Shown: positions 1 to 10,886 of the stretch, in pieces | How positions within the stretch are numbered: the first letter of the stretch is position 1 | Layout: the number at the start of each line of letters is the position of its first letter | DNA from: Flaviramulus sp. | Lineage (GTDB): Bacteria; Bacteroidota; Bacteroidia; Flavobacteriales; Flavobacteriaceae | DNA length: 64,000 bases | Assembly (NCBI GenBank): GCA_030731745.1 | Contig: JANQTJ010000028.1 | Coordinates: forward strand, 31,817 to 95,816 | Direction: 5' to 3' | The notes under the pieces: generated by a model | The model's input: the letters and a program-made list of their open reading frames with translations, nothing else | Told to the model about the DNA's origin: nothing | Database searches by the model: none | Program-made: the position numbers and the translations under genes

Positions 1-302
1 CTGATGAATCTTTGAAAAATGTAAATATAGATTCTATTGCAATACTAATTGGAGAAAAAGAAGCAGCAAAAGATTTAGAAATATTGGATCACTTTAAACA
101 AGTTCAAGAATTGTGTAATAAAGAACAAAAGGAAAAATTTAGTAAAATTATAGAGGATGCAATGCGAAGAGCCGGTGAAAATCGAGGTCTGCCACCCGGA
201 AGACAACCAGATGGAAACCGACCGCCACATCCTGATGGAGATAGACCACCGCACCCTGATGGTCCACCTGACAGTAAAAGACCGCCACCACCAGGGCACT
301 AA
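1..302 (+). CDS. C-terminal part of a Spy/CpxP/ZraP-like periplasmic (heavy metal sensor-like) protein, truncated at window left edge
   Basis: Frame is open to base 3 (..DESLKNVNIDSIAILIGEKEAAKDLEILDHFKQVQELCNKEQKEKFSKIIEDAMRR), typical Spy/CpxP C-terminal helix, followed by a Pro/His-rich tail; the ORF-track TTG start at 12 is probably not the true start. Confidence 0.6.
   Translation, partial: DESLKNVNIDSIAILIGEKEAAKDLEILDHFKQVQELCNKEQKEKFSKIIEDAMRRAGENRGLPPGRQPDGNRPPHPDGDRPPHPDGPPDSKRPPPPGH
216..263 (+). repeat. Two tandem 24-bp units encoding (N/D)RPPHPDG
   Basis: Translated NRPPHPDG then DRPPHPDG, followed by a partial unit. Confidence 0.75.
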
Positions 303-321
303 TAATTAGATATAGCATTTT

Positions 322-353
322 AAGACCTTCAAAATATTGAGGGTCTTTTTTTT
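322..353 (+). terminator. Rho-independent terminator
   Basis: AAGACCTTC..TGAGGGTCTT hairpin followed by T-run. Confidence 0.75.
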
Positions 354-429: not shown

Positions 430-717
430 ATGATGAATAATGTATTTAGAATAGCAGTATTAGTTTTTGGATTGACACTTTTTATGTCGACCAGTTCTTT
501 TGGACAATCTGAAAACAGAGATGAAAGAAAAGAACCACCAACTTTTAAAGAGTTACTAGAAAAGATGGATACCAATGAAGATGGCAAATTATCAAAAGAA
601 GAAGTTAAAGGGCCTTTGAAAGACGATTTTGCTAAAGTTGATGCAGATGAAGATGGTTTTATTACAGAAGAAGAATTAAAGAAAGCACCAAAACCAAAAG
701 GAAGAAAAAGAGATTAA
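430..717 (+). CDS. EF-hand domain protein, secreted
   Basis: Signal peptide; two EF-hand loops (MDTNEDGKLSKEE, VDADEDGFITEEE). Confidence 0.8.
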   Translation: MMNNVFRIAVLVFGLTLFMSTSSFGQSENRDERKEPPTFKELLEKMDTNEDGKLSKEEVKGPLKDDFAKVDADEDGFITEEELKKAPKPKGRKRD

Positions 718-758: not shown

Positions 759-2186
759 ATGAAGACGATAAAATCAATTCTACCATTAGTAAAAGCTTCA
801 ATTTTTGTATTTCTTGGATTATGCTTTATTGGATGTAGTAATGATAACGCTTCGGAACAGGAAATGATGGAAGAAGTTGAAGAAATTATTGTTTTAGATG
901 ACACAGATTTTGAAGCTACAGACTGGACAACTGAAACACACACTAAGGATGTAGATCCAAATTTTGATGAGGTGTTTCAAGATAATACTGTTAAAAGACT
1001 AGATTTTGTAATTACAGAAGCAAGGTGGCAAAGTATGTTGGATGATATGACTGCTACTTACGGTGCTTTTGGTTCAGGTAGCTCAGCTGGTTTACTAGAA
1101 ACAGATGAAGACCCCATTTTTGTGCCAGCGGAAGTATTTTATAATGACAAACAATGGTATCGAGTAGGTGTGAGATTTAAAGGAAACTCTAGTTTACAAT
1201 CAAGTTGGGGAAATGGTAATTTAAAACTATCGTTCAAATTAGATTTTGATGAGTTTGAAGATGATTATCCGCAAATTGACAACCAACGTTTTTATGGATT
1301 TAAGAAGTTTAGCCTTAAAAATAATTTTGATGACAGATCGATGCTTCGCGAAAAAGTAGCAACTGATGTGTTTAGAAATGCAGGTTTAGTAGCATCACAT
1401 ACCGCGTTTTATACACTTTATGTTGATCATGGTGATGGCCCTCAATATTTTGGTCTTTATACTTTGGTGGAAGAAGTTGATGGTAGCGTTTTAGATACAC
1501 AATTTTCTGATGATGATGGGAATTTGTACAAACCCGACGGAGATGCAGCAAGTTTTGCAGCGGGGACGTATGATGAAGATGAATATGTAAAGAAAACAAA
1601 TGAAGATGAAGCTGATTTCTCAGATGTTCAAAGCCTTTTAACGGCAATTAATAATGATATTAGAACAACTGATGCAGCTACTTGGAGAGCGAACCTTGAG
1701 ACTGTTTTTGATACTGAGGTATTTTTAAAATACTTAGCTGTTAATACGGTTGTTCAAAACTGGGATACTTATGGGCGCATGACACACAATTATTATTTAT
1801 ACAATAATCCAGATACTAGTAAATTAACTTGGATTCCTTGGGATAATAATGAGGCACTGCAGGATGGTAAAAGGGAAGGTTCATTAGCATTAGATTTTTC
1901 TGATTTAAGTACTACGGAGTGGCCAATAATTGGTTATATGTATCAAGATGATGTATATAAAGCTAAATATGATACCTATCTACAAGAGGTAATAGATGGC
2001 CCTTTTAATACAGCCACAATACAAACTTTATATAGCACTTACTCAAATTTGGTAGAGCCTTATGCAACTACTGAAGTAGATGGTTATTCATTTTTGAATA
2101 ATAGTAGTGATTTTTATTCTGCTATTTCAACGCTTAAAACACATGTGGCAAATCGAACAGCAGCAGTTAACAATTATTTAGATTAA
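759..2186 (+). CDS. CotH kinase family lipoprotein
   Basis: Lipobox (FIGCSND); CotH-like motifs (VGVRFKGNSS, FKKFSLKNNFDDRSMLREKVATDVFRNAG, WIPWDNNEAL). Confidence 0.8.
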   Translation: MKTIKSILPLVKASIFVFLGLCFIGCSNDNASEQEMMEEVEEIIVLDDTDFEATDWTTETHTKDVDPNFDEVFQDNTVKRLDFVITEARWQSMLDDMTATYGAFGSGSSAGLLETDEDPIFVPAEVFYNDKQWYRVGVRFKGNSSLQSSWGNGNLKLSFKLDFDEFEDDYPQIDNQRFYGFKKFSLKNNFDDRSMLREKVATDVFRNAGLVASHTAFYTLYVDHGDGPQYFGLYTLVEEVDGSVLDTQFSDDDGNLYKPDGDAASFAAGTYDEDEYVKKTNEDEADFSDVQSLLTAINNDIRTTDAATWRANLETVFDTEVFLKYLAVNTVVQNWDTYGRMTHNYYLYNNPDTSKLTWIPWDNNEALQDGKREGSLALDFSDLSTTEWPIIGYMYQDDVYKAKYDTYLQEVIDGPFNTATIQTLYSTYSNLVEPYATTEVDGYSFLNNSSDFYSAISTLKTHVANRTAAVNNYLD

Positions 2187-2490: not shown

Positions 2491-3282
2491 ATGAAAACAT
2501 TATTTAAAAAACCACAAGCTATACTTAGCATATTAGTTTTAGCAATTTTCGCAATTATCTCTTGCAGTAATAGCGATGATAGCTCAAATGAAGAAATGGA
2601 GGAAGAAGGAGAAGAAGGAATAACAGAATTAAGTAGTGCTTTTGCCCAGTTTTCAGATGCAGTTACCGTTATGTTATCTGATGATGGAACCGAAATCTAT
2701 ATTGAAACAACAGGATTTCCAAATCATACTTCAATTTATTGGAATCCTACTAATGCACTCTATATAGACGAACCAACAGTTAGAAAAACAACCGAAAATA
2801 CTTATATTGGAGGAGGTCGGGGTGAAGCTAGTTCGTTTACAGTTGATGCAACTCCAAACTTAACAGGAGCTACTGTTGCTACACAATTAGGAACTATGGG
2901 TATCGCTGTAAGTGGATCAGCTATTTTTAATGACCAAGAAGGTAACGGAGATTTAGACGGAGCTGCAGGAGGGTTAGATTGGGCGGGAGCCCATAAAGGG
3001 CCTGGTGTCTATCACTATCATTTAGAACCTAGGCCTATTACTAATGATGATGAGAAATTAGTAGGGATATTACTAGATGGTGTTTTTATTTATGGAAGAA
3101 AGTGCCATTCCACTGGAACATATCCAACAGATTTAGACGCATCAGGAGGGCATACATCTACTACACAATATGAAACTGAAGCTATTTACCATTATCATAT
3201 CATTAATGAAGTCTATCCTGCATCTACATATGGGTATGACGACCCTATTGTTCTATTTGCAGGACCATTCCAAGGTTATTGA
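2491..3282 (+). CDS. YHYH domain-containing lipoprotein (copy 1)
   Basis: Lipobox (IISCSN); two YHYH motifs (GVYHYHLEP, IYHYHIINE); paralog of 6134..6898. Confidence 0.8.
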   Translation: MKTLFKKPQAILSILVLAIFAIISCSNSDDSSNEEMEEEGEEGITELSSAFAQFSDAVTVMLSDDGTEIYIETTGFPNHTSIYWNPTNALYIDEPTVRKTTENTYIGGGRGEASSFTVDATPNLTGATVATQLGTMGIAVSGSAIFNDQEGNGDLDGAAGGLDWAGAHKGPGVYHYHLEPRPITNDDEKLVGILLDGVFIYGRKCHSTGTYPTDLDASGGHTSTTQYETEAIYHYHIINEVYPASTYGYDDPIVLFAGPFQGY

Positions 3283-3914
3283 AATATAGATATATGAAAC
3301 CAATTCTTTTTTTTATGCTTATCGCGTTTTCGATAATAGGTTGTAAAGAAACTGAAGCTAACAAAATAGCAAATATTGTTTCAGATGATAATGCTATACT
3401 TATTGATAGCATAGAAGTGCTAAAAGAAGAATTGGTTCTTAAAGGAAATAAGGGTAAATGGTATTATAAAGAACAACCCTTTAATGGATATTCTTTAAAG
3501 TATTACCCTAATGGAACTTTAGAAGAGAAATGGGGTTTTCATAATGGAAAAAGGGAAGGTATTGCTAAGCGCTGGACTGAAAATGGAATCCTTCAAGTAG
3601 AATCTTATTATAAAAATAACCTTTTAACTGGTGTGTATAAAACCTGGTGGGAAAATGACACTTTAGCAAGTCAATCTTATTATGAAAATGGTACTAAGCA
3701 AGGTGTAGATAAAAATTGGTATTCAACAGGTCAAATAGCCAAATTGCGAAATCTTGTTGATGGAAAAGAAAACGGTTTACAACAAGCTTGGTTAGCAAAC
3801 GGAAAATTGTATGTTAATTATGAAGCAAAAAATGGACGTGTTTTTGGAATGAGAAGAGCAAATTCATGTGTTAGATTAGAGGATGAAGTTGTAATCAGAA
3901 AAGTAAAGAAATGA
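3279..3914 (+). CDS. YwqK/MORN-repeat lipoprotein (copy 1)
   Basis: Repeated YYxNG/W.xNG motifs; lipobox IIGCK; start TTG 3279 or ATG 3294. Confidence 0.75.
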   Translation: MKYRYMKPILFFMLIAFSIIGCKETEANKIANIVSDDNAILIDSIEVLKEELVLKGNKGKWYYKEQPFNGYSLKYYPNGTLEEKWGFHNGKREGIAKRWTENGILQVESYYKNNLLTGVYKTWWENDTLASQSYYENGTKQGVDKNWYSTGQIAKLRNLVDGKENGLQQAWLANGKLYVNYEAKNGRVFGMRRANSCVRLEDEVVIRKVKK

Positions 3915-4579
3915 AGTATATAACTGTATTGTGTCTCTTGGTTTTTTTTAGTTGTAAAAAGGAAATCAAAAAAGAAAACATTAAGGTTGTTGAAACTAGT
4001 AGGGTGGATTATTTGCCCTATTACAATGATGAATCTTTTACGCCCCATTGGTTAACTCCTGGAAGCGATCAAGAAAAGGCATTCCATAAAATTCCAGATT
4101 TTAATTTATTAAATCAATTAGGCGAAGTAGTTACTCAAAAAACGTTTAATGATAAAATATACATAACAGATTTCTTTTTTACTACTTGCCCAGGTATTTG
4201 TCCTAAAATGACCGGTAATATGGCTAAAGTACAGGAAGCCTTTATAAATGATTCTGATGTATTATTATTGTCACATTCAGTTATGCCAACCACAGATTCT
4301 GTTCCAGTTTTAAAAACTTATGCAAAAAACAATAATGTCATTGATAATAAATGGCACTTAGTAACTGGTGACAAAAATGATATTTATAGTTTGGGGAGAG
4401 ATCATTATTTTGTTGAAAATGATTTAGGAGAAGTAAAAAGTATTGACGATTTTTTACATACAGAAAACTTTTTACTTATTGATAAAAATAAACATATAAG
4501 AGGTATTTATAATGGCTTGAATAGAGCCTCAATAGCACAATTAATTATTGATGTAAAAGCACTCAAAGAAGAAATTTGA
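3911..4579 (+). CDS. SCO family (SCO1/SenC) copper-chaperone-like lipoprotein (copy 1)
   Basis: FFFTTCPGICPKM (CxxxC) with downstream HTENFLLIDK; ATGA overlap with upstream ORF. Confidence 0.88.
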   Translation: MKYITVLCLLVFFSCKKEIKKENIKVVETSRVDYLPYYNDESFTPHWLTPGSDQEKAFHKIPDFNLLNQLGEVVTQKTFNDKIYITDFFFTTCPGICPKMTGNMAKVQEAFINDSDVLLLSHSVMPTTDSVPVLKTYAKNNNVIDNKWHLVTGDKNDIYSLGRDHYFVENDLGEVKSIDDFLHTENFLLIDKNKHIRGIYNGLNRASIAQLIIDVKALKEEI

Positions 4580-4605
4580 TTACTTAATAGATGTTTTTTG
4601 ATGAG

Positions 4606-4637
4606 AAGCTTCGTGATTTATTTACGAAGCTTTTTTA
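4606..4637 (+). terminator. Terminator after SCO copy 1
   Basis: AAGCTTCGT / ACGAAGCTT stem followed by T-run. Confidence 0.75.
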
Positions 4638-4802
4638 TTTATAGCAGTTAAATTCTGATATGAATTAAACTTTACGAGTTTTTAATAGTCTTAATAAAAA
4701 AACGAACTAAATAATTAAAGGAGCATGATTAGAATTTTATCACCCAACGGAATGATAAATGGCAAGTCGCACATGACTTTTCGTAACAATAAGTAATATC
4801 AC

Positions 4803-6116
4803 ATGAAGCTAACTTTTTATATTTTTCTATTCAGTATTATTTTTTTTTCATGTAGTAAAAGTGAAGAAGCTCAAGAAATTATAGAACAAGAAGAAACTAA
4901 CATAGATATCACAAAACCCAATATTTTACTCGTTATTGCCGACGATATGGGATTGGATGCTACGCCAGGTTATGATTTAGTTAACAGTATAAAACCACAA
5001 ATGCCAAATTTAGAAGCCATGATTAGTAATGGTATTAAATTCACAAATACATGGTCTTATTCAGTATGTTCTCCAACGCGGGCTAGTATTTTAACTGGAA
5101 AATATGGTTTTAGAACAAATGTACTTCGAGCTGGAGATGTGTTATCTACTAGTGAGATTTCACTTCAAAAATATTTAGATAATCAAAATTCTGGATATAG
5201 TCATAAACTTATTGGTAAATGGCATCTCTCTAGCGATATAAATCATCCAAATAGTATGGGTATAGATGATTTTGCTGGCTTTAGAAATGGTGGAGTTACA
5301 TCGTATTCAAATTGGGATTTTATAGAGAACCTTCAAACAAGTAATTCAACAGAATATACAACTACTAAATTTACCAATTTAGCTATAGATTGGGTTGCAA
5401 ATCAAACACAACCTTGGTTTTTGTGGTTAGCTTATAATGCACCTCACACACCTTTTCATTTACCACCAAATAATTTGCATAGCCAAGGAAGTTTACCATC
5501 AGAATCTTCTGCTATAGAAACCAATCCTTTACCATATTATTTGGCAATGATAGAAGCTATGGATACTGAAATGGGTAGGTTGATAAGTACCTTTAGTCAA
5601 GAAGTTAAAGATAACACGATTATCATTTTTATAGGCGATAACGGTAGCCCAAGGCAAGTAGCACAAGTTTATCCTAACGGTAGAGCAAAAGAGAGTTTAT
5701 ATCAAGGCGGTATAAATGTGCCCATGGTAGTTTCTGGTAAAAATATAGAACGTATTGGTGCCATTGAAGACGCTTTAATAAACACAACAGATTTGTATGC
5801 TACAATAGCAGAAATTGCCGGATTAAATATTGCTGAGATAAATGACAGTAAGAGTTTTAAATCTTTATTCAAAACCTCAAACACAAGTATAAGAGATTAC
5901 GCTTTTAGCGAATTAGAAGATACCTCTGGAAATATAGATTACACCATAAGAAATAATACATTCAAGTATATGAGTTTTTCAAGTGGCCAAGAGGCTTTAT
6001 ATAATCTTATAAACGATCCTTTAGAATCTACAAATCTTTTGAATAATACGTTAACAGATACAGAAAACAATAATAAACTGGCCTTAATTGCTGAGGTTAC
6101 AAGGCTAAAACAATAA
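4803..6116 (+). CDS. Sulfatase (arylsulfatase-type) lipoprotein
   Basis: NILLVIADDMG; CSPTRASILTGKYG Cys-type sulfatase signature; lipobox FSCSK. Confidence 0.88.
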   Translation: MKLTFYIFLFSIIFFSCSKSEEAQEIIEQEETNIDITKPNILLVIADDMGLDATPGYDLVNSIKPQMPNLEAMISNGIKFTNTWSYSVCSPTRASILTGKYGFRTNVLRAGDVLSTSEISLQKYLDNQNSGYSHKLIGKWHLSSDINHPNSMGIDDFAGFRNGGVTSYSNWDFIENLQTSNSTEYTTTKFTNLAIDWVANQTQPWFLWLAYNAPHTPFHLPPNNLHSQGSLPSESSAIETNPLPYYLAMIEAMDTEMGRLISTFSQEVKDNTIIIFIGDNGSPRQVAQVYPNGRAKESLYQGGINVPMVVSGKNIERIGAIEDALINTTDLYATIAEIAGLNIAEINDSKSFKSLFKTSNTSIRDYAFSELEDTSGNIDYTIRNNTFKYMSFSSGQEALYNLINDPLESTNLLNNTLTDTENNNKLALIAEVTRLKQ

Positions 6117-6133
6117 CTTAAAAACTACTTCAA

Positions 6134-6898
6134 ATGAGAAAACTTAAATATCCAATTCAATTTTCGTTGCTTTTATTATTTATTTCCATAGCATGTTCAA
6201 GTGATGGTAATAATGAAGTTGTTAAAAAAATAGAACCTGAAGCAAATTATGATATTAGTTCAATTTTAACGAAATTTGAAGGCACAGGTTTATCTTATTC
6301 CACAAGCGGAAATACAGTTACATTTACAACTCAAAATTTACCAAACCACACCAGTCCGTATTGGCCAACAAATAATCCACTTTACGAAGTTTATAATGGT
6401 GCAAATTCAAGTTGGAGACAAAATCCTAATGAAATTGCAGAACAGAATATTGTACTAACCATAAATCTAAACCCTAAAGAAGCACTCAATAAAGAAGCTA
6501 CGCCATTGGGTCCTATCGGAATCTCGAGAAACGGTGTTGTGTTTTTTAATCAATATGCTGGCCCAGATTTACCACTTACTAACGAAATAAATTCGTTCGA
6601 TCAATGGTTAGGGCATCCCACAGGAGGAAGTATTTATCATTACCATATCGAGCCAACTTATTTAACAACTACGTTTGGAGAGGATGCTTTTTTAGGGCTT
6701 TTAGCCGATGGGTTTCCTGTTTATGGGCCAGTTGAAAATGGTGAAACCATTAGCAATACTGATTTAGATGCTTATCACGGGCATACTAGTGCTACAACCG
6801 ATTTTCCAGATGGAATTTATCATTATCATATAACAAGTGAAGATCCATATCTTAATGGAAATGGATATTTCGGAACCCCAGGAAATATTTCTAGATAA
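6134..6898 (+). CDS. YHYH domain-containing lipoprotein (copy 2)
   Basis: Lipobox (SIACSS); two YHYH motifs (SIYHYHIEP, GIYHYHITSE). Confidence 0.8.
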   Translation: MRKLKYPIQFSLLLLFISIACSSDGNNEVVKKIEPEANYDISSILTKFEGTGLSYSTSGNTVTFTTQNLPNHTSPYWPTNNPLYEVYNGANSSWRQNPNEIAEQNIVLTINLNPKEALNKEATPLGPIGISRNGVVFFNQYAGPDLPLTNEINSFDQWLGHPTGGSIYHYHIEPTYLTTTFGEDAFLGLLADGFPVYGPVENGETISNTDLDAYHGHTSATTDFPDGIYHYHITSEDPYLNGNGYFGTPGNISR

Positions 6899-7465
6899 TT
6901 GAAATTTAAAGTATTATATATTGTTTTTTTGACTTTCATTTTTATGTCTTGTAAAAATGAAAGCCAACATTTGATATTAGATGCATCAAATCTAGGTTTG
7001 AAATTAGAAAATGGCGTTTTACAATTAAAAAGCATACCTTTTTTTGGAAAATTAAATACGTATCATATTAAGGGTAATTTGAAATCTGAAATATATTACG
7101 TTGAAGGTTTAAAGCATGGTGATGAAAAACATTGGTATGAAAACGGATATTTAGCGATACAGCGTAATTATACAAAAGGTTTTAAAACAGGAATTCATAA
7201 AGCTTGGTGGGAAAATGGAAATCTTAGATTTGAATATTATTTTAATGATAAAGGTGAGTTTCATGGTAGTGTTAAAGAATGGTATAATGAAGGAAATCTG
7301 CAAATGAGTTTTAATTATATAAATGGAAAAGAAGCGGGAAATCAGCTTGTACTGAAAAGTAATGGGAATATTAAAGCTAATTACGAAGTTATTAATGGTG
7401 AACGATTTGGATTGATTGGTTTAAAAAAATGTTATACCGTAACCGAAATTAGTGATGCATTTTAA
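6899..7465 (+). CDS. YwqK/MORN-repeat lipoprotein (copy 2)
   Basis: MORN-like repeats (HWYENGYLAI, AWWENGNLRF); lipobox FMSCK; TTG start directly after upstream stop. Confidence 0.75.
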   Translation: MKFKVLYIVFLTFIFMSCKNESQHLILDASNLGLKLENGVLQLKSIPFFGKLNTYHIKGNLKSEIYYVEGLKHGDEKHWYENGYLAIQRNYTKGFKTGIHKAWWENGNLRFEYYFNDKGEFHGSVKEWYNEGNLQMSFNYINGKEAGNQLVLKSNGNIKANYEVINGERFGLIGLKKCYTVTEISDAF

Positions 7466-8093
7466 TATAAAAAATATCAGTTTATTAATATTAATTGTTT
7501 TTTACTCTTGTAAAGAAAAGCAAACAGAAACTGTTTCTGTTTTAAAACTTCCGTATTTTAATAGTGCTGAGTTTACTCCAGAATGGAACACACCTACTCA
7601 TAAAATTCCAGAGTTTTCATTTGTAAATCAAGATGGAGAAAAAGTGACTAACAAAACATTTGAAAACAAAATATATATTGCTGATTTCTTTTTTACGAGT
7701 TGCCCAGGTATTTGTCCTAAATTAACTAAAAACATGAACAACTTGCAAACTACTTATTTAAATGATGATGACATAAAATTACTTTCACATACCGTTATGC
7801 CGTGGAAAGATTCTATTCCTGTTTTAAAACAATATGCTGAAAGAAACCAAGTAAATATTACTAAATGGCATTTAGTTACAGGTAATAAAGATGATATATA
7901 TGAGATAGCTAGAAACGGTTATTTTGCTGATGAAGATTTTACAAAAACCCAAGATGAAAGTAATTTTATTCATACCGAAAATTTTATTTTGGTAGATAAA
8001 AAAGGGTTTATTCGTGGTGTTTATAATGGTACTTTAGAAATTGATGTTGAACGCTTAAAACGTCATATTGAAATATTACAGAAAGAAATTTAG
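7455..8093 (+). CDS. SCO family (SCO1/SenC) copper-chaperone-like lipoprotein (copy 2)
   Basis: FFFTSCPGICPKL motif and HTENFILVDK; clear paralog of 3911..4579; ORF track begins at GTG 7452. Confidence 0.87.
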   Translation: MHFNIKNISLLILIVFYSCKEKQTETVSVLKLPYFNSAEFTPEWNTPTHKIPEFSFVNQDGEKVTNKTFENKIYIADFFFTSCPGICPKLTKNMNNLQTTYLNDDDIKLLSHTVMPWKDSIPVLKQYAERNQVNITKWHLVTGNKDDIYEIARNGYFADEDFTKTQDESNFIHTENFILVDKKGFIRGVYNGTLEIDVERLKRHIEILQKEI

Positions 8094-8120
8094 TTTGACT
8101 AATTTTATTTAGTTGAAAGC

Positions 8121-8147
8121 GCTTCGTGTTAATTCATGAAGCTTTTT
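8121..8147 (+). terminator. Terminator after SCO copy 2
   Basis: GCTTCGTG / CATGAAGC stem then T-run; resembles hairpin at 4606. Confidence 0.65.
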
Positions 8148-8163
8148 CTATTTTTATAGAAAT

Positions 8164-9216
8164 TTGAAATTAATGAAACAGTTTAGCGTAATAATTTTGT
8201 CATTTGTGTTTTTGTTTTCTTGTGGAAAAAAGAAAGTGTTTAAACCAAGACTTATTACTAAAGTTGAAATTGAAACGCTTTTGGAAGATTCTTTACTGAG
8301 TATTAGAGCCATTGAAATTCTTAATGATAAAAGTCTAGCATTTGCTGCTAACAATGGTGCATTTGGATTGTCTAATTCTAGAACGGGGTTATGGCAAAAA
8401 TCATTTCAAAAATATGATAGCTTAAATATACATTTTAGAGCAGTGGCTCATACAAGTAAAGATTTTTTTATGCTAAGTGTTGATACTCCAGCTTTACTAT
8501 ATAAAACAGGTAGTGATGGAAAAATGGAAGTCGTTTATAAAGAAGATGGGATTGGTGTTTTTTACGATTCCATGAATTTTTGGAATGATGAAGAAGGCAT
8601 TGCTATAGGTGACTCAAATAATGGTTGTTTAAGTGTAATTATTACTCGAGATGGCGGAGAAAGTTGGACTAAACTTTCTTGTGATGCTTTACCAAAAGGA
8701 ATTGAAAACGAAGGTGCTTTTGCTGCCAGCAACACTAATATTGCTATAGTTGGAGATAAAACTTGGATAGCAACAAATACAGGACGAGTTTATTATTCGC
8801 ATAATAAAGGAAACAGTTGGGAAGTTTTTGATACCCCAATTGTTAAAGAAAAGGAAACTGAAGGCATATATTCTATTGATTTTTACGATGCACTTAATGG
8901 GTTTGCTATTGGTGGCGATTATACAAAACCTGATGATAATAGTGCCAATAAAATAAAATCTACAGATGGCGGAAAAACATGGCAATTAGTTTCTCAAAAC
9001 AAAAATCTAGGTTATAGAAGTTGTGTGCAATACATTCCAAATAGAGAAGGGAAGGAGTTGGTTGCTATTGGTTTTAAAGGTATTGATTACAGTAATGATG
9101 CTGGAGAAACTTGGAAGCACTTAAGTGATGAAGGTTTTTATACGATTCGGTTTTTAAATGATAGTATTGCTTATGCCGCTGGTCTAAAACGTATATCAAA
9201 ACTTATTTTCAGATAA
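8164..9216 (+). CDS. YCF48/BNR-repeat beta-propeller lipoprotein
   Basis: Repeated DGGxSWxKL / STDGGKTWQLV / NDAGETWKHL motifs; lipobox FSCGK. Confidence 0.75.
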   Translation: MKLMKQFSVIILSFVFLFSCGKKKVFKPRLITKVEIETLLEDSLLSIRAIEILNDKSLAFAANNGAFGLSNSRTGLWQKSFQKYDSLNIHFRAVAHTSKDFFMLSVDTPALLYKTGSDGKMEVVYKEDGIGVFYDSMNFWNDEEGIAIGDSNNGCLSVIITRDGGESWTKLSCDALPKGIENEGAFAASNTNIAIVGDKTWIATNTGRVYYSHNKGNSWEVFDTPIVKEKETEGIYSIDFYDALNGFAIGGDYTKPDDNSANKIKSTDGGKTWQLVSQNKNLGYRSCVQYIPNREGKELVAIGFKGIDYSNDAGETWKHLSDEGFYTIRFLNDSIAYAAGLKRISKLIFR

Positions 9217-9246
9217 AAAAAGGGAGCTTTTTAGCTCCTTTTTTTA
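9215..9246. terminator. Bidirectional terminator between convergent genes
   Basis: AAAAAGGGAGCTTTTTAGCTCCTTTTTTT palindrome. Confidence 0.8.
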
Positions 9247-9690
9247 ATTATCTTTTCTACCTTCCTCGCGCCATTTTTTAAATTGTTCAAAAAGTTTTTT
9301 GTTAAAATCTTCTTCAGCCTGTTTTAATAAAATGATTTTTTTTGGAGATATAACTTTTTTCAATTTAGCTATCAAGTCTATATCTAAATTATGTAGTTTA
9401 TTTTCAGCATCCATAAGCTTATTTAAAAGCTCATTAGCTTTTTCATCAGATAAAGTAACAGTATTACTTTTAAATTCTTTATTTATACTTCTGATCTCTG
9501 AGTGTTTAATTTTTAAATAATTATCATCAAAATCATTATAAATAGGCCAGAATTTTTGGGCTTCTTGTTGAGTTAAATTAAGTCTTTCGGTAATAAACGA
9601 AACTTTAAGAGCCTTAATTTTATCTCTTCGAGATTGAGAAAATAGACTTAAAGAGGTAAAAAGTAATAATATTATAGTAATTTTTTTCAT
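9244..9690 (-). CDS. Spy/CpxP-like 'sensor of ECF sigma factor' periplasmic protein
   Basis: Signal peptide; FITERLNLTQQEAQKFWPIYNDFDD; same strand as adjacent sigma gene. Confidence 0.65.
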   Translation of the reverse strand: MKKITIILLLFTSLSLFSQSRRDKIKALKVSFITERLNLTQQEAQKFWPIYNDFDDNYLKIKHSEIRSINKEFKSNTVTLSDEKANELLNKLMDAENKLHNLDIDLIAKLKKVISPKKIILLKQAEEDFNKKLFEQFKKWREEGRKDN

Positions 9691-9701
9691 AATTATTTTT
9701 T

Positions 9702-10199
9702 TTAGTCAACCATTAGGCTTTCAATATCAATATGATTAACAATGTATGATTCAATATTTTCTTCATTAAAATTATAATCTATAAAATTCTCTTCTGTAAG
9801 CTCTTCTAATGTTAGTAAGTTGGCAATTTCATAAGAGTCAACACCTTCATTGATAATATAATTCTCAGCTGTTTCAATATCTAAACTATCAAAAGTAATA
9901 TTTCTTTCAAAAATAGATAGGTTGAATAATAGTAAAATAGCTGCAGCAATACTAGAAGCATAAACAAAATTCTTTCGATTAAAAAGTGAAATAACTTTAA
10001 TATTTTCTTTTTCTGAAACTTTATCTAAAATTTTGTATTCAAGTGTTTCTAAATAGTTTTTGGGAATTTTAAAGCCTGATCTATCTGATAGTTCTTTAAT
10101 TTTTATAGAACTTAATAAAACATCATCAAAATTTTCAAAGTAATCTTTAGGAACTTTAAATCCAGCTTCTTTAATGTTATTTAATTTATTTTGTTTCAT
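9702..10199 (-). CDS. Putative membrane anti-sigma-like protein
   Basis: Single TM segment; lies between sigma factor and sensor-like gene; duplicated GFK(V/I)PK(D/N)Y motif. Confidence 0.45.
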   Translation of the reverse strand: MKQNKLNNIKEAGFKVPKDYFENFDDVLLSSIKIKELSDRSGFKIPKNYLETLEYKILDKVSEKENIKVISLFNRKNFVYASSIAAAILLLFNLSIFERNITFDSLDIETAENYIINEGVDSYEIANLLTLEELTEENFIDYNFNEENIESYIVNHIDIESLMVD

Positions 10200-10232
10200 C
10201 TTAGTATTAAGACTTATATTTTTGTTAAAGGT

Positions 10233-10775
10233 TTAATTTTTAGTTAAATAAGCTTCAATTTTTTTTATGGCGATATGGTAAGATGCTTTTAAAGCACCTT
10301 CACTGGTTTCTAAAATATCTGACATATCCTTGTATTTTAGTTCTTGAAAATATTTCATATTGAAAACTAATTGCTGTTTTTCTGGCAAAGTAGCTATTGC
10401 TTTTTGTAATTTAAGTTGAATAACATCACCTTCAAAATAAACATCTGTAGCTAAATTATTAATAGCGAATTGTTTCATTTCTTCATTAGAAGTTTGCAAT
10501 CTTTTAGCATTTTTATTAATGAATGTTAGAGATTCATTAGTGGCAATTCGATACATCCAAGAGTATAATTTACTATCTCCCTTAAAATTATGAATATTTC
10601 TGAAAACTTTTATGAAAGTGTTTTGTAAGACATCGTCTGTATCATCATGAGATTTTACAATATTACGTATGTGCCAGTACAAAGGTTCTTTATATTGCGT
10701 TATTAACGCTTTAAATCCCTTGTCTTTTTGATTCTCAGATTTTAATTGTTCTAATAATTTAGCTTCTTCAATCAC
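10233..10775 (-). CDS. RNA polymerase sigma factor, ECF (sigma-70 family)
   Basis: Region 2 (DDTDDVLQNTFIKVFRNIHNFKGDSKLYSWMYRIATNESL) and region 4 (LPEKQQLVFNMKYFQELKYKDMSDIL). Confidence 0.9.
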   Translation of the reverse strand: MIEEAKLLEQLKSENQKDKGFKALITQYKEPLYWHIRNIVKSHDDTDDVLQNTFIKVFRNIHNFKGDSKLYSWMYRIATNESLTFINKNAKRLQTSNEEMKQFAINNLATDVYFEGDVIQLKLQKAIATLPEKQQLVFNMKYFQELKYKDMSDILETSEGALKASYHIAIKKIEAYLTKN

Positions 10776-10886
10776 AAAAACACTTTGCTAATTAGACTAT
10801 TAAATTTACTAAAAGTTTAAAGTCTATTTTTTTTAAATAACTTAAAAATATAACTTATTTAAAATCAGTTATTTAAATAATTTTAT

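Follow-up and report, generated by a model that had tools for sequence, protein, structure and literature searches.

The window analysed here is a 64,000-nucleotide stretch from Flaviramulus sp. (assembly GCA_030731745.1, contig JANQTJ010000028.1, positions 31,817 to 95,816), and it carries two cassettes of three lipoprotein genes, each encoding in order a YHYH protein, a YwqK-like MORN protein and a SCO protein. An earlier sequence-only reading had placed this cassette at 2491-4579 and again at 6134-8093, and the six open reading frames (ORFs) were found there on the + strand. Comparison with related loci showed that the conserved entity is the three-gene unit YHYH-MORN-SCO. The unit, its two types, a set of invariant residues and two promoter motifs were all supported computationally. 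We tentatively propose, at a probability a little short of even, that SCO and MORN assist metallation of YHYH, with copper the favoured metal, or reduction of its site, under two extracytoplasmic function (ECF) sigma circuits responding to stress or metal.

Conservation of the three-gene unit

Families were assigned by Pfam profile search. Copies 1 and 2 of YHYH scored 42.2 and 65.4 bits against PF14240 (gathering cut-off 25), those of MORN 42.5 and 33.1 bits against MORN_2 PF07661 (cut-off 29.6), and those of SCO 83.7 and 98.1 bits against SCO1-SenC PF02630 (cut-off 22.8). Identity between the copies was 31% for YHYH (E=4e-28), 29% for MORN (E=3e-25) and 50% for SCO (E=5e-80); the motifs quoted in the sequence-only reading were also present, and the paralogy it proposed for each pair was upheld. 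Its description of the products as lipoproteins agrees with lipobox-like N-termini in 132/135 YHYH, 104/135 MORN and 130/135 SCO homologues. Genes within a cassette overlap or abut, with gaps of -4 and -4 nt in cassette 1 and 0 and -14 nt in cassette 2.

A YHYH protein was found in 41 of 151 genomes of the same family. The short subtype, present in 33 of those 41, was ordered YHYH-MORN-SCO on one strand in 35 of its 36 copies, and the same order was seen in 80 named loci, all from Flavobacteriaceae. Further short-type loci across Bacteroidota had both partners in 15 of 16 cases and MORN alone in the remaining one. In total, 135 of 138 short-type YHYH genes lay in complete cassettes, of which 127 differ in their YHYH sequence; two of the three incomplete cases are extra YHYH genes adjoining another cassette. 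Adjacency of the three genes in other genomes, as the sequence-only reading had expected, is near-universal for the short YHYH subtype across Bacteroidota.

The flanks of the cassette were far less constant. EF-hand genes occurred in 91/113 loci and CotH genes in 41/113. Outside Flavobacteriaceae, most loci had none of the EF-hand, CotH, VTC, DUF4956 or sulfatase genes and kept MORN and SCO, and in most the flanks were unrelated (MFS carriers, trehalase, glutamine synthetase, SecDF and others). Common descent of one extended chromosomal segment therefore does not explain the linkage.

Two ancient cassette types

When each gene was scored against the window's two copies, all three genes were of the same type in 130/135 cassettes; the five discordant cassettes are deep branches with mostly near-equal scores. 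In the YHYH, MORN and SCO trees, the types fell on opposite sides of one branch, with support of 99, 98 and 91, respectively. Within types, distances were correlated between genes (rho 0.75-0.90, against at most 0.53 in within-type permutations), a correlation that partly reflects species history. Because members of both types occur outside the family, the split must predate it.

Most genomes keep one type, and both are found in the source genome and a few others. Seven loci of the set had both types together, and five of these shared one chromosomal site. The order type 1-sulfatase-type 2-BNR was common to the source genome, L093, Maribacter algarum (L113) and L127, and the genomes with that exact order were scattered across the SCO tree. 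The simplest reading is an ancestral tandem array from which one copy was lost in most lineages, with block transfer a possible alternative origin of the shared array. Of the old, maintained duplication described in the sequence-only reading, the old and conserved three-gene unit stood, while 'duplication' is better replaced by two old paralogous types that usually occur singly elsewhere. Its concern that the copies might prove unlinked was not borne out, as they stand in tandem in several genera.

Invariant residues, predicted fold and predicted location

Residue statistics were taken from alignments of the 135 cassette homologues. In SCO, the cysteine pair of the CxxxC motif (C93, C97) and a distal histidine (H183) were present in 135/135, and the corresponding residues of Bacillus subtilis Sco aligned with them. 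In YHYH, H79, H168, H175, H177, H221, H234, D163, D196 and D216 were conserved at 100% and H236 at 99%, a set that would fit a predicted metal site with a conserved His triad and Asp. MORN had, besides many glycines, a single C-terminal cysteine at 100% (Cys197 in copy 1, Cys178 in copy 2), which had been missed when NG.xFG was given as the motif of this protein.

An AlphaFold2 (AF2) model of YHYH copy 2, built on a 78-sequence alignment, reached a predicted local distance difference test score (pLDDT) of 92.7 and a predicted template modelling score (pTM) of 0.87. An earlier AF2 model from 36 sequences (pLDDT 65) was excluded from the fold search. Against the PDB, the best match of the model had E 0.55 and no meaningful neighbour was found, nor did a PDB sequence search find relatives of YHYH or MORN; in BFVD, the model matched phage YHYH proteins at E 5e-12. 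By this search, YHYH appears to be a confidently predicted fold without a solved example.

Surface lipoproteins of Bacteroidota bear a short acidic export signal after the lipid-bearing cysteine (PMC5080379), which we scored as the acidic and basic share of the ten residues following it. YHYH was 33% acidic and 1% basic, with an acidic pair in 99/132, and CotH 37% acidic and 1-2% basic, with an acidic pair in 33/41. SCO (18% acidic, 31% basic), MORN (14%, 16%) and the BNR lipoprotein were without such a signal. On these values, YHYH and CotH are predicted to be outside the cell, with SCO and MORN staying in the periplasm. The predicted split agrees with maturation in the periplasm before export, and it speaks against the three proteins ending up in a stable complex; the sequence-only reading had suggested a physical envelope complex.

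Promoter motifs and ECF circuits

Upstream regions, searched without a prior model, yielded motif 1, CAAGT-N15-CATCTAAA, with its spacing fixed in 173/175. Motif 1 lies directly 5′ of ECF1, of ECF1's small partner and of EF-hand and YHYH genes. It was present in 41/42 ECF1 loci compared with 1/37 His-kinase/LytTR loci (Fisher 3e-20, a value in which independence is overstated, as the loci are related). The source genome, which is 75% complete, has four sites, all in this locus and one of them 5′ of cassette 1, against about 0.17 expected. Motif 2, AAAC[CT]TT-N14-GTCTAA, was found 5′ of ECF2 in 32/45, of the sulfatase in 8/9 and of other genes in 2/380. The source genome has five motif-2 sites, three of them here (5′ of the sulfatase, of ECF2 and of ECF2's neighbour); the sites on C32 and C43 looked like background or unproven and were set aside.

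Both sigma factors have Sigma70_r2 and r4_2 domains, and each has its own motif upstream (motif 1 for ECF1, motif 2 for ECF2), which amounts to autoregulation as a sequence motif only. On the simplest reading, cassette 1 would be under ECF1 and sulfatase-cassette 2 under ECF2, with motif 1 presumably read by ECF1 and motif 2 by ECF2. The two substrate or partner specificities imagined earlier for the copies give way here to two regulatory inputs, one per copy, as what the data point to. Motif 1 often occurs 5′ of type-2 cassettes without a sulfatase, so the pairing of motif and type is no rule. Use of the sites in the window is less sure, since the sulfatase motif-2 site lies 136 nt from its gene (32-52 nt in relatives) and motif 1 lies 186 nt from YHYH copy 1 (usually about 25). 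A sigma-70 promoter scan performed no better than shuffles.

In about 37 loci (L109-L115, L119, L131 and similar), a divergent His-kinase/LytTR pair replaces ECF1. Their upstream repeats, for example CTTAA and TTCAC 12 nt apart, are reminiscent of LytTR sites. A minimal ECF1 locus (L233:5662-9108) contains ECF1, p104, a Spy-like gene, an EF-hand gene and BNR, without YHYH or CotH.

Layout of the locus and recurring neighbours

The cassettes delimited in the sequence-only reading held, but they sit within a larger locus that it had left out, comprising ECF sigma, putative anti-sigma, Spy-like, EF-hand, CotH, sulfatase and BNR genes and the convergently oriented ECF2 module (Table 1). ECF1 and then a small putative anti-sigma gene (p104) precede the Spy-like gene, both 5′ of the window. 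The tail of the Spy-like protein is a repeat rich in Pro, His and Asp, DGNRPPHPDGDRPPHPDG, which may bind metal. Terminator hairpins were called as consensus matches, with 5 found against 3.9 in shuffles, and each is weak singly. Hairpins after SCO copy 1, SCO copy 2 and BNR suggest that the array is transcribed as distinct units: EF-hand-CotH, cassette 1, sulfatase-cassette 2 and BNR. The sulfatase and cassette 2 are probably co-transcribed.

Table 1. Features of the cassette array and its surroundings (window coordinates)
Feature	Position	Strand	Remarks
Spy/LTXXQ-like exported protein, tail	12..302	+	gene start 261 nt 5′ of window; Metal_resist PF13801 match under cut-off
Terminator-like hairpin	322..347	+	3′ of Spy-like gene
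ECF1 promoter motif CAAGTTTTTGATAAAGGAGGCATCTAAA	379..406	+	5′ of EF-hand/CotH
Two-EF-hand protein, small, exported	430..717	+	
CotH kinase-family lipoprotein	759..2186	+	N-terminus surface-export-like
ECF1 promoter motif CAAGTTTTTTTTTGTTTAAGCATCTAAA	2277..2304	+	5′ of YHYH copy 1
YHYH lipoprotein, type 1	2491..3282	+	
MORN_2 lipoprotein, type 1	3279..3914	+	invariant C-terminal Cys197; alternative ATG start 3294
SCO1/SenC lipoprotein, type 1	3911..4579	+	C93, C97, H183
Terminator-like hairpin, 14-bp stem	4603..4635	+	3′ of cassette 1
Motif 2 (ECF2-type promoter) AAACTTTACGAGTTTTTAATAGTCTTA	4667..4693	+	5′ of sulfatase
Sulfatase, C-x-P-x-R motif	4803..6116	+	17-nt gap to cassette 2
YHYH lipoprotein, type 2	6134..6898	+	AF2 model pLDDT 92.7
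MORN_2 lipoprotein, type 2	6899..7465	+	invariant Cys178
SCO1/SenC lipoprotein, type 2	7452..8093	+	alignable with Bacillus subtilis Sco1 1ON4/1XZO; both Cys and His kept
Terminator-like hairpin	8121..8142	+	3′ of cassette 2
BNR/Ycf48-like propeller lipoprotein	8164..9216	+	neighbour recurring at 39 loci
Terminator-like hairpin	9216-9245		3′ of BNR gene
Small exported protein, sensor position of ECF2 module	9244..9690	-	one homologue a weak Metal_resist match
Putative anti-sigma of ECF2	9702..10199	-	assigned by position only
Motif 2 site	10208..10234	-	5′ of putative anti-sigma gene
ECF2 sigma factor	10233..10775	-	
Motif 2 site	10792..10818	-	5′ of ECF2

Motif 1 also lies upstream of an unlinked sulfatase orthologue with 62% identity (L235:6727-8040), which supports the sulfatase as a regulon member. 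Four MauG/MbnH-like di-haem genes stand 3′ of motif 1 (L084:8111-9268, L236:7990-9156, L039:6043-7422, L060:10865-12211), two of them directly following a cassette. The best score of these MauG-family proteins against TIGR04039 (MbnH) was 255.6, below the curated cut-off of 362.85. In relatives, motif 1 occurs 5′ of VTC genes as well, and VTC, DUF4956 and DUF2490 genes adjoin CotH within ECF loci (L102:6274-7023, L098:771-1373, L130:13540-14256).

Sister YHYH genes have partners of their own. A long YHYH fused to EF-hands was found either directly 5′ of cassettes or sharing an ECF locus with them (L074:9185-10315, L104:7932-9575, L143:18803-19972), and other subfamilies are paired with DUF6702 (L112:8133-9848, L061:8835-10570, L148:8136-9791, L143:13661-15345). 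These DUF6702 partners have a histidine at the predicted mature N-terminus in 18/19; a DUF6702 protein has been reported to bind Ni with a dissociation constant (Kd) in the pM range and Co and Cu in the nM range (PMC12537917). The motif-1 regulon and the sister YHYH pairings lean towards transition-metal and redox chemistry at the envelope.

Other arrangements were also observed. A DUF3500 protein is flanked by two YHYH genes at L143:15381-16715, and a Loktanella plasmid (L206:4415-7837) has two YHYH genes interleaved with PEBP/YbhB genes, another partnership. At L221:8726-11496, the place of SCO beside a YHYH-MORN pair is taken by an unannotated 339-residue gene. The third SCO gene of the source genome is unlinked (L210:1-8418) and adjoins two feoB-type genes and an M50 protease gene; one of the feoB-type genes is apparently split (ORFs 605-1369 and 1380-2798).

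A proposed mechanism and its rivals

We suggest that SCO, a thioredoxin-fold protein bearing CxxxC and the distal His, would work on the periplasmic side together with the MORN lipoprotein. A metal, most likely Cu, would be loaded from SCO into the His/Asp-rich YHYH, or the YHYH site would be held reduced, and the sole invariant Cys of MORN may relay metal or thiols. YHYH would then be flipped to the cell surface by way of its acidic lipoprotein export signal. ECF1 would drive cassette 1 together with EF-hand and CotH, and ECF2 the sulfatase and cassette 2. The two sigma genes lie at either end of the array. Next to each is a gene for a small exported protein, in the place that the sensor takes in Cnr-type circuits, and the signal may be metal or stress. 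Copper is favoured because of the SCO ligand set. Copper delivery or sensing had been raised in the sequence-only reading; a metal role is indeed favoured by the SCO ligands, the His/Asp-rich YHYH, the DUF6702 link and the MauG-type genes, with copper itself a candidate. A bolder version sees YHYH as a surface enzyme of new fold that depends on copper, and the cassette as a self-contained maturation system across Bacteroidota, with two paralogous versions placed on two different ECF sensors in one array in some marine Flavobacteriaceae; as a whole it is doubtful.

Several observations weigh against SCO-assisted metallation with copper. Neither a copper transporter nor a regulator responsive to copper was seen to recur near the cassettes, and their spread was judged from loci retrieved with a YHYH query, not with SCO or MORN queries. 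The cassette at L187/L221 is without SCO. YHYH of other subtypes and phyla also occurs without it, as in long-type YHYH loci, the Rhodobacterales YHYH genes (adjoining PEBP proteins) and the Bradyrhizobium YHYH; the YHYH fold in general therefore needs no SCO. The sensor-position proteins match the heavy-metal family below its cut-off: the Spy-like protein scored 18.7 bits against PF13801 (cut-off 29.2), and a relative passes LTXXQ narrowly (24.5 vs 24.3). The EF-hand, CotH, VTC and DUF4956 neighbours point equally to calcium/phosphate chemistry. Finally, the function suggested for YHYH in print is that of a Zn hydrolase in phage tails (PMC7824862), a view that a metal site would allow and with which only copper is at odds.

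On that last view, YHYH would be a Zn-type metal hydrolase with polymers of the cell surface as its substrates, and SCO a thiol-disulfide reductase guarding the MORN Cys or envelope thiols. SCO proteins are thioredoxin folds, and the sulfatase partner would fit a hydrolase. The cassette YHYH has an invariant His/Asp set similar to that of the phage proteins predicted to form Zn-site hydrolases (PMC7824862). However, hydrolase activity of YHYH is itself a prediction, peptidoglycan or tail genes were not recognised nearby, and SCO keeps in 135/135 its distal His, which serves as a copper ligand and would be needless in a plain thiol reductase. We consider this reading unlikely. Less likely again is a calcium/phosphate envelope or mineral-interaction system built of EF-hands, CotH kinase, VTC, DUF4956 and sulfatase, with SCO a passenger. 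The frequency of EF-hand and CotH genes given above, the YHYH-EF-hand fusions, VTC and DUF4956 beside CotH, and the minimal ECF1 locus with EF-hand and BNR and no YHYH would all suit it. Outside Flavobacteriaceae, however, EF-hand, CotH and VTC are mostly absent and MORN and SCO stay, which makes SCO core to the cassette and EF-hand and CotH not, and weakens the calcium/phosphate reading.

The best-established role of SCO is copper-site assembly in cytochrome oxidase, and the cassette SCOs might serve the respiratory enzyme with YHYH and MORN as auxiliaries. This seems improbable: the genome has another SCO gene away from the cassettes, no motif-1 site lies elsewhere in that genome at its 75% completeness, and no cytochrome oxidase gene was recognised among annotated cassette neighbours, some neighbouring ORFs being unannotated. 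YwqK-like proteins are often named antitoxin in databases, the sole point in favour of the cassette being a toxin-antitoxin set. We give this almost no credence, as MORN is a predicted lipoprotein, no toxin family was found among the cassette-protein matches, and the neighbours of MORN in 135 cassettes are YHYH and SCO rather than a cognate toxin.

Relation to known systems and implications

The SCO component resembles SCO1/SenC chaperones (Bacillus subtilis YpmQ/BsSco, PDB 1ON4 and 1XZO) in fold family, CxxxC, distal His, export and lipid anchor, but it partners YHYH and MORN, not oxidase genes, and comes in two types, each with its own YHYH and MORN type. The YHYH component shares domain family, conserved His/Asp and a fold match with phage tail and baseplate YHYH proteins (Iyer et al. 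2021, PMC7824862); unlike these, it is a short Bacteroidota lipoprotein subtype found with MORN-SCO and without tail genes. DUF6702 metal sequesterases (PMC12537917), with their N-terminal His, partner sister YHYH subfamilies in the same loci, whereas the window cassettes lack DUF6702, its position being taken by MORN and SCO. CnrYXH-type circuits are alike in having an ECF sigma factor, a small second protein, a small exported protein and an autoregulatory promoter motif, but here the sensor match to PF13801 is below cut-off and no efflux pump is among the targets. MbnH/MauG di-haem enzymes, known with MbnP (PMC3621798), have MauG-family counterparts in relatives that bear the ECF1 promoter motif; these proteins fall below the curated cut-off, however, and none is encoded in the window's locus.

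In the literature searched, neither the cassette, nor either promoter motif, nor a tested function of a bacterial YHYH protein was described. The component families are known; as far as that literature shows, their assembly and wiring are new. No function has been tested for YHYH proteins, which occur in bacteria, phages, giant viruses and diatoms, and the fixed partnership with SCO gives a concrete handle on the function of one YHYH subtype. SCO/MORN-assisted maturation of YHYH would predict an SCO client outside respiration and a metal-handling role for the MORN lipoprotein. Both promoter motifs would allow an expression test in cultured Winogradskyella, Maribacter, Lacinutrix and Polaribacter.

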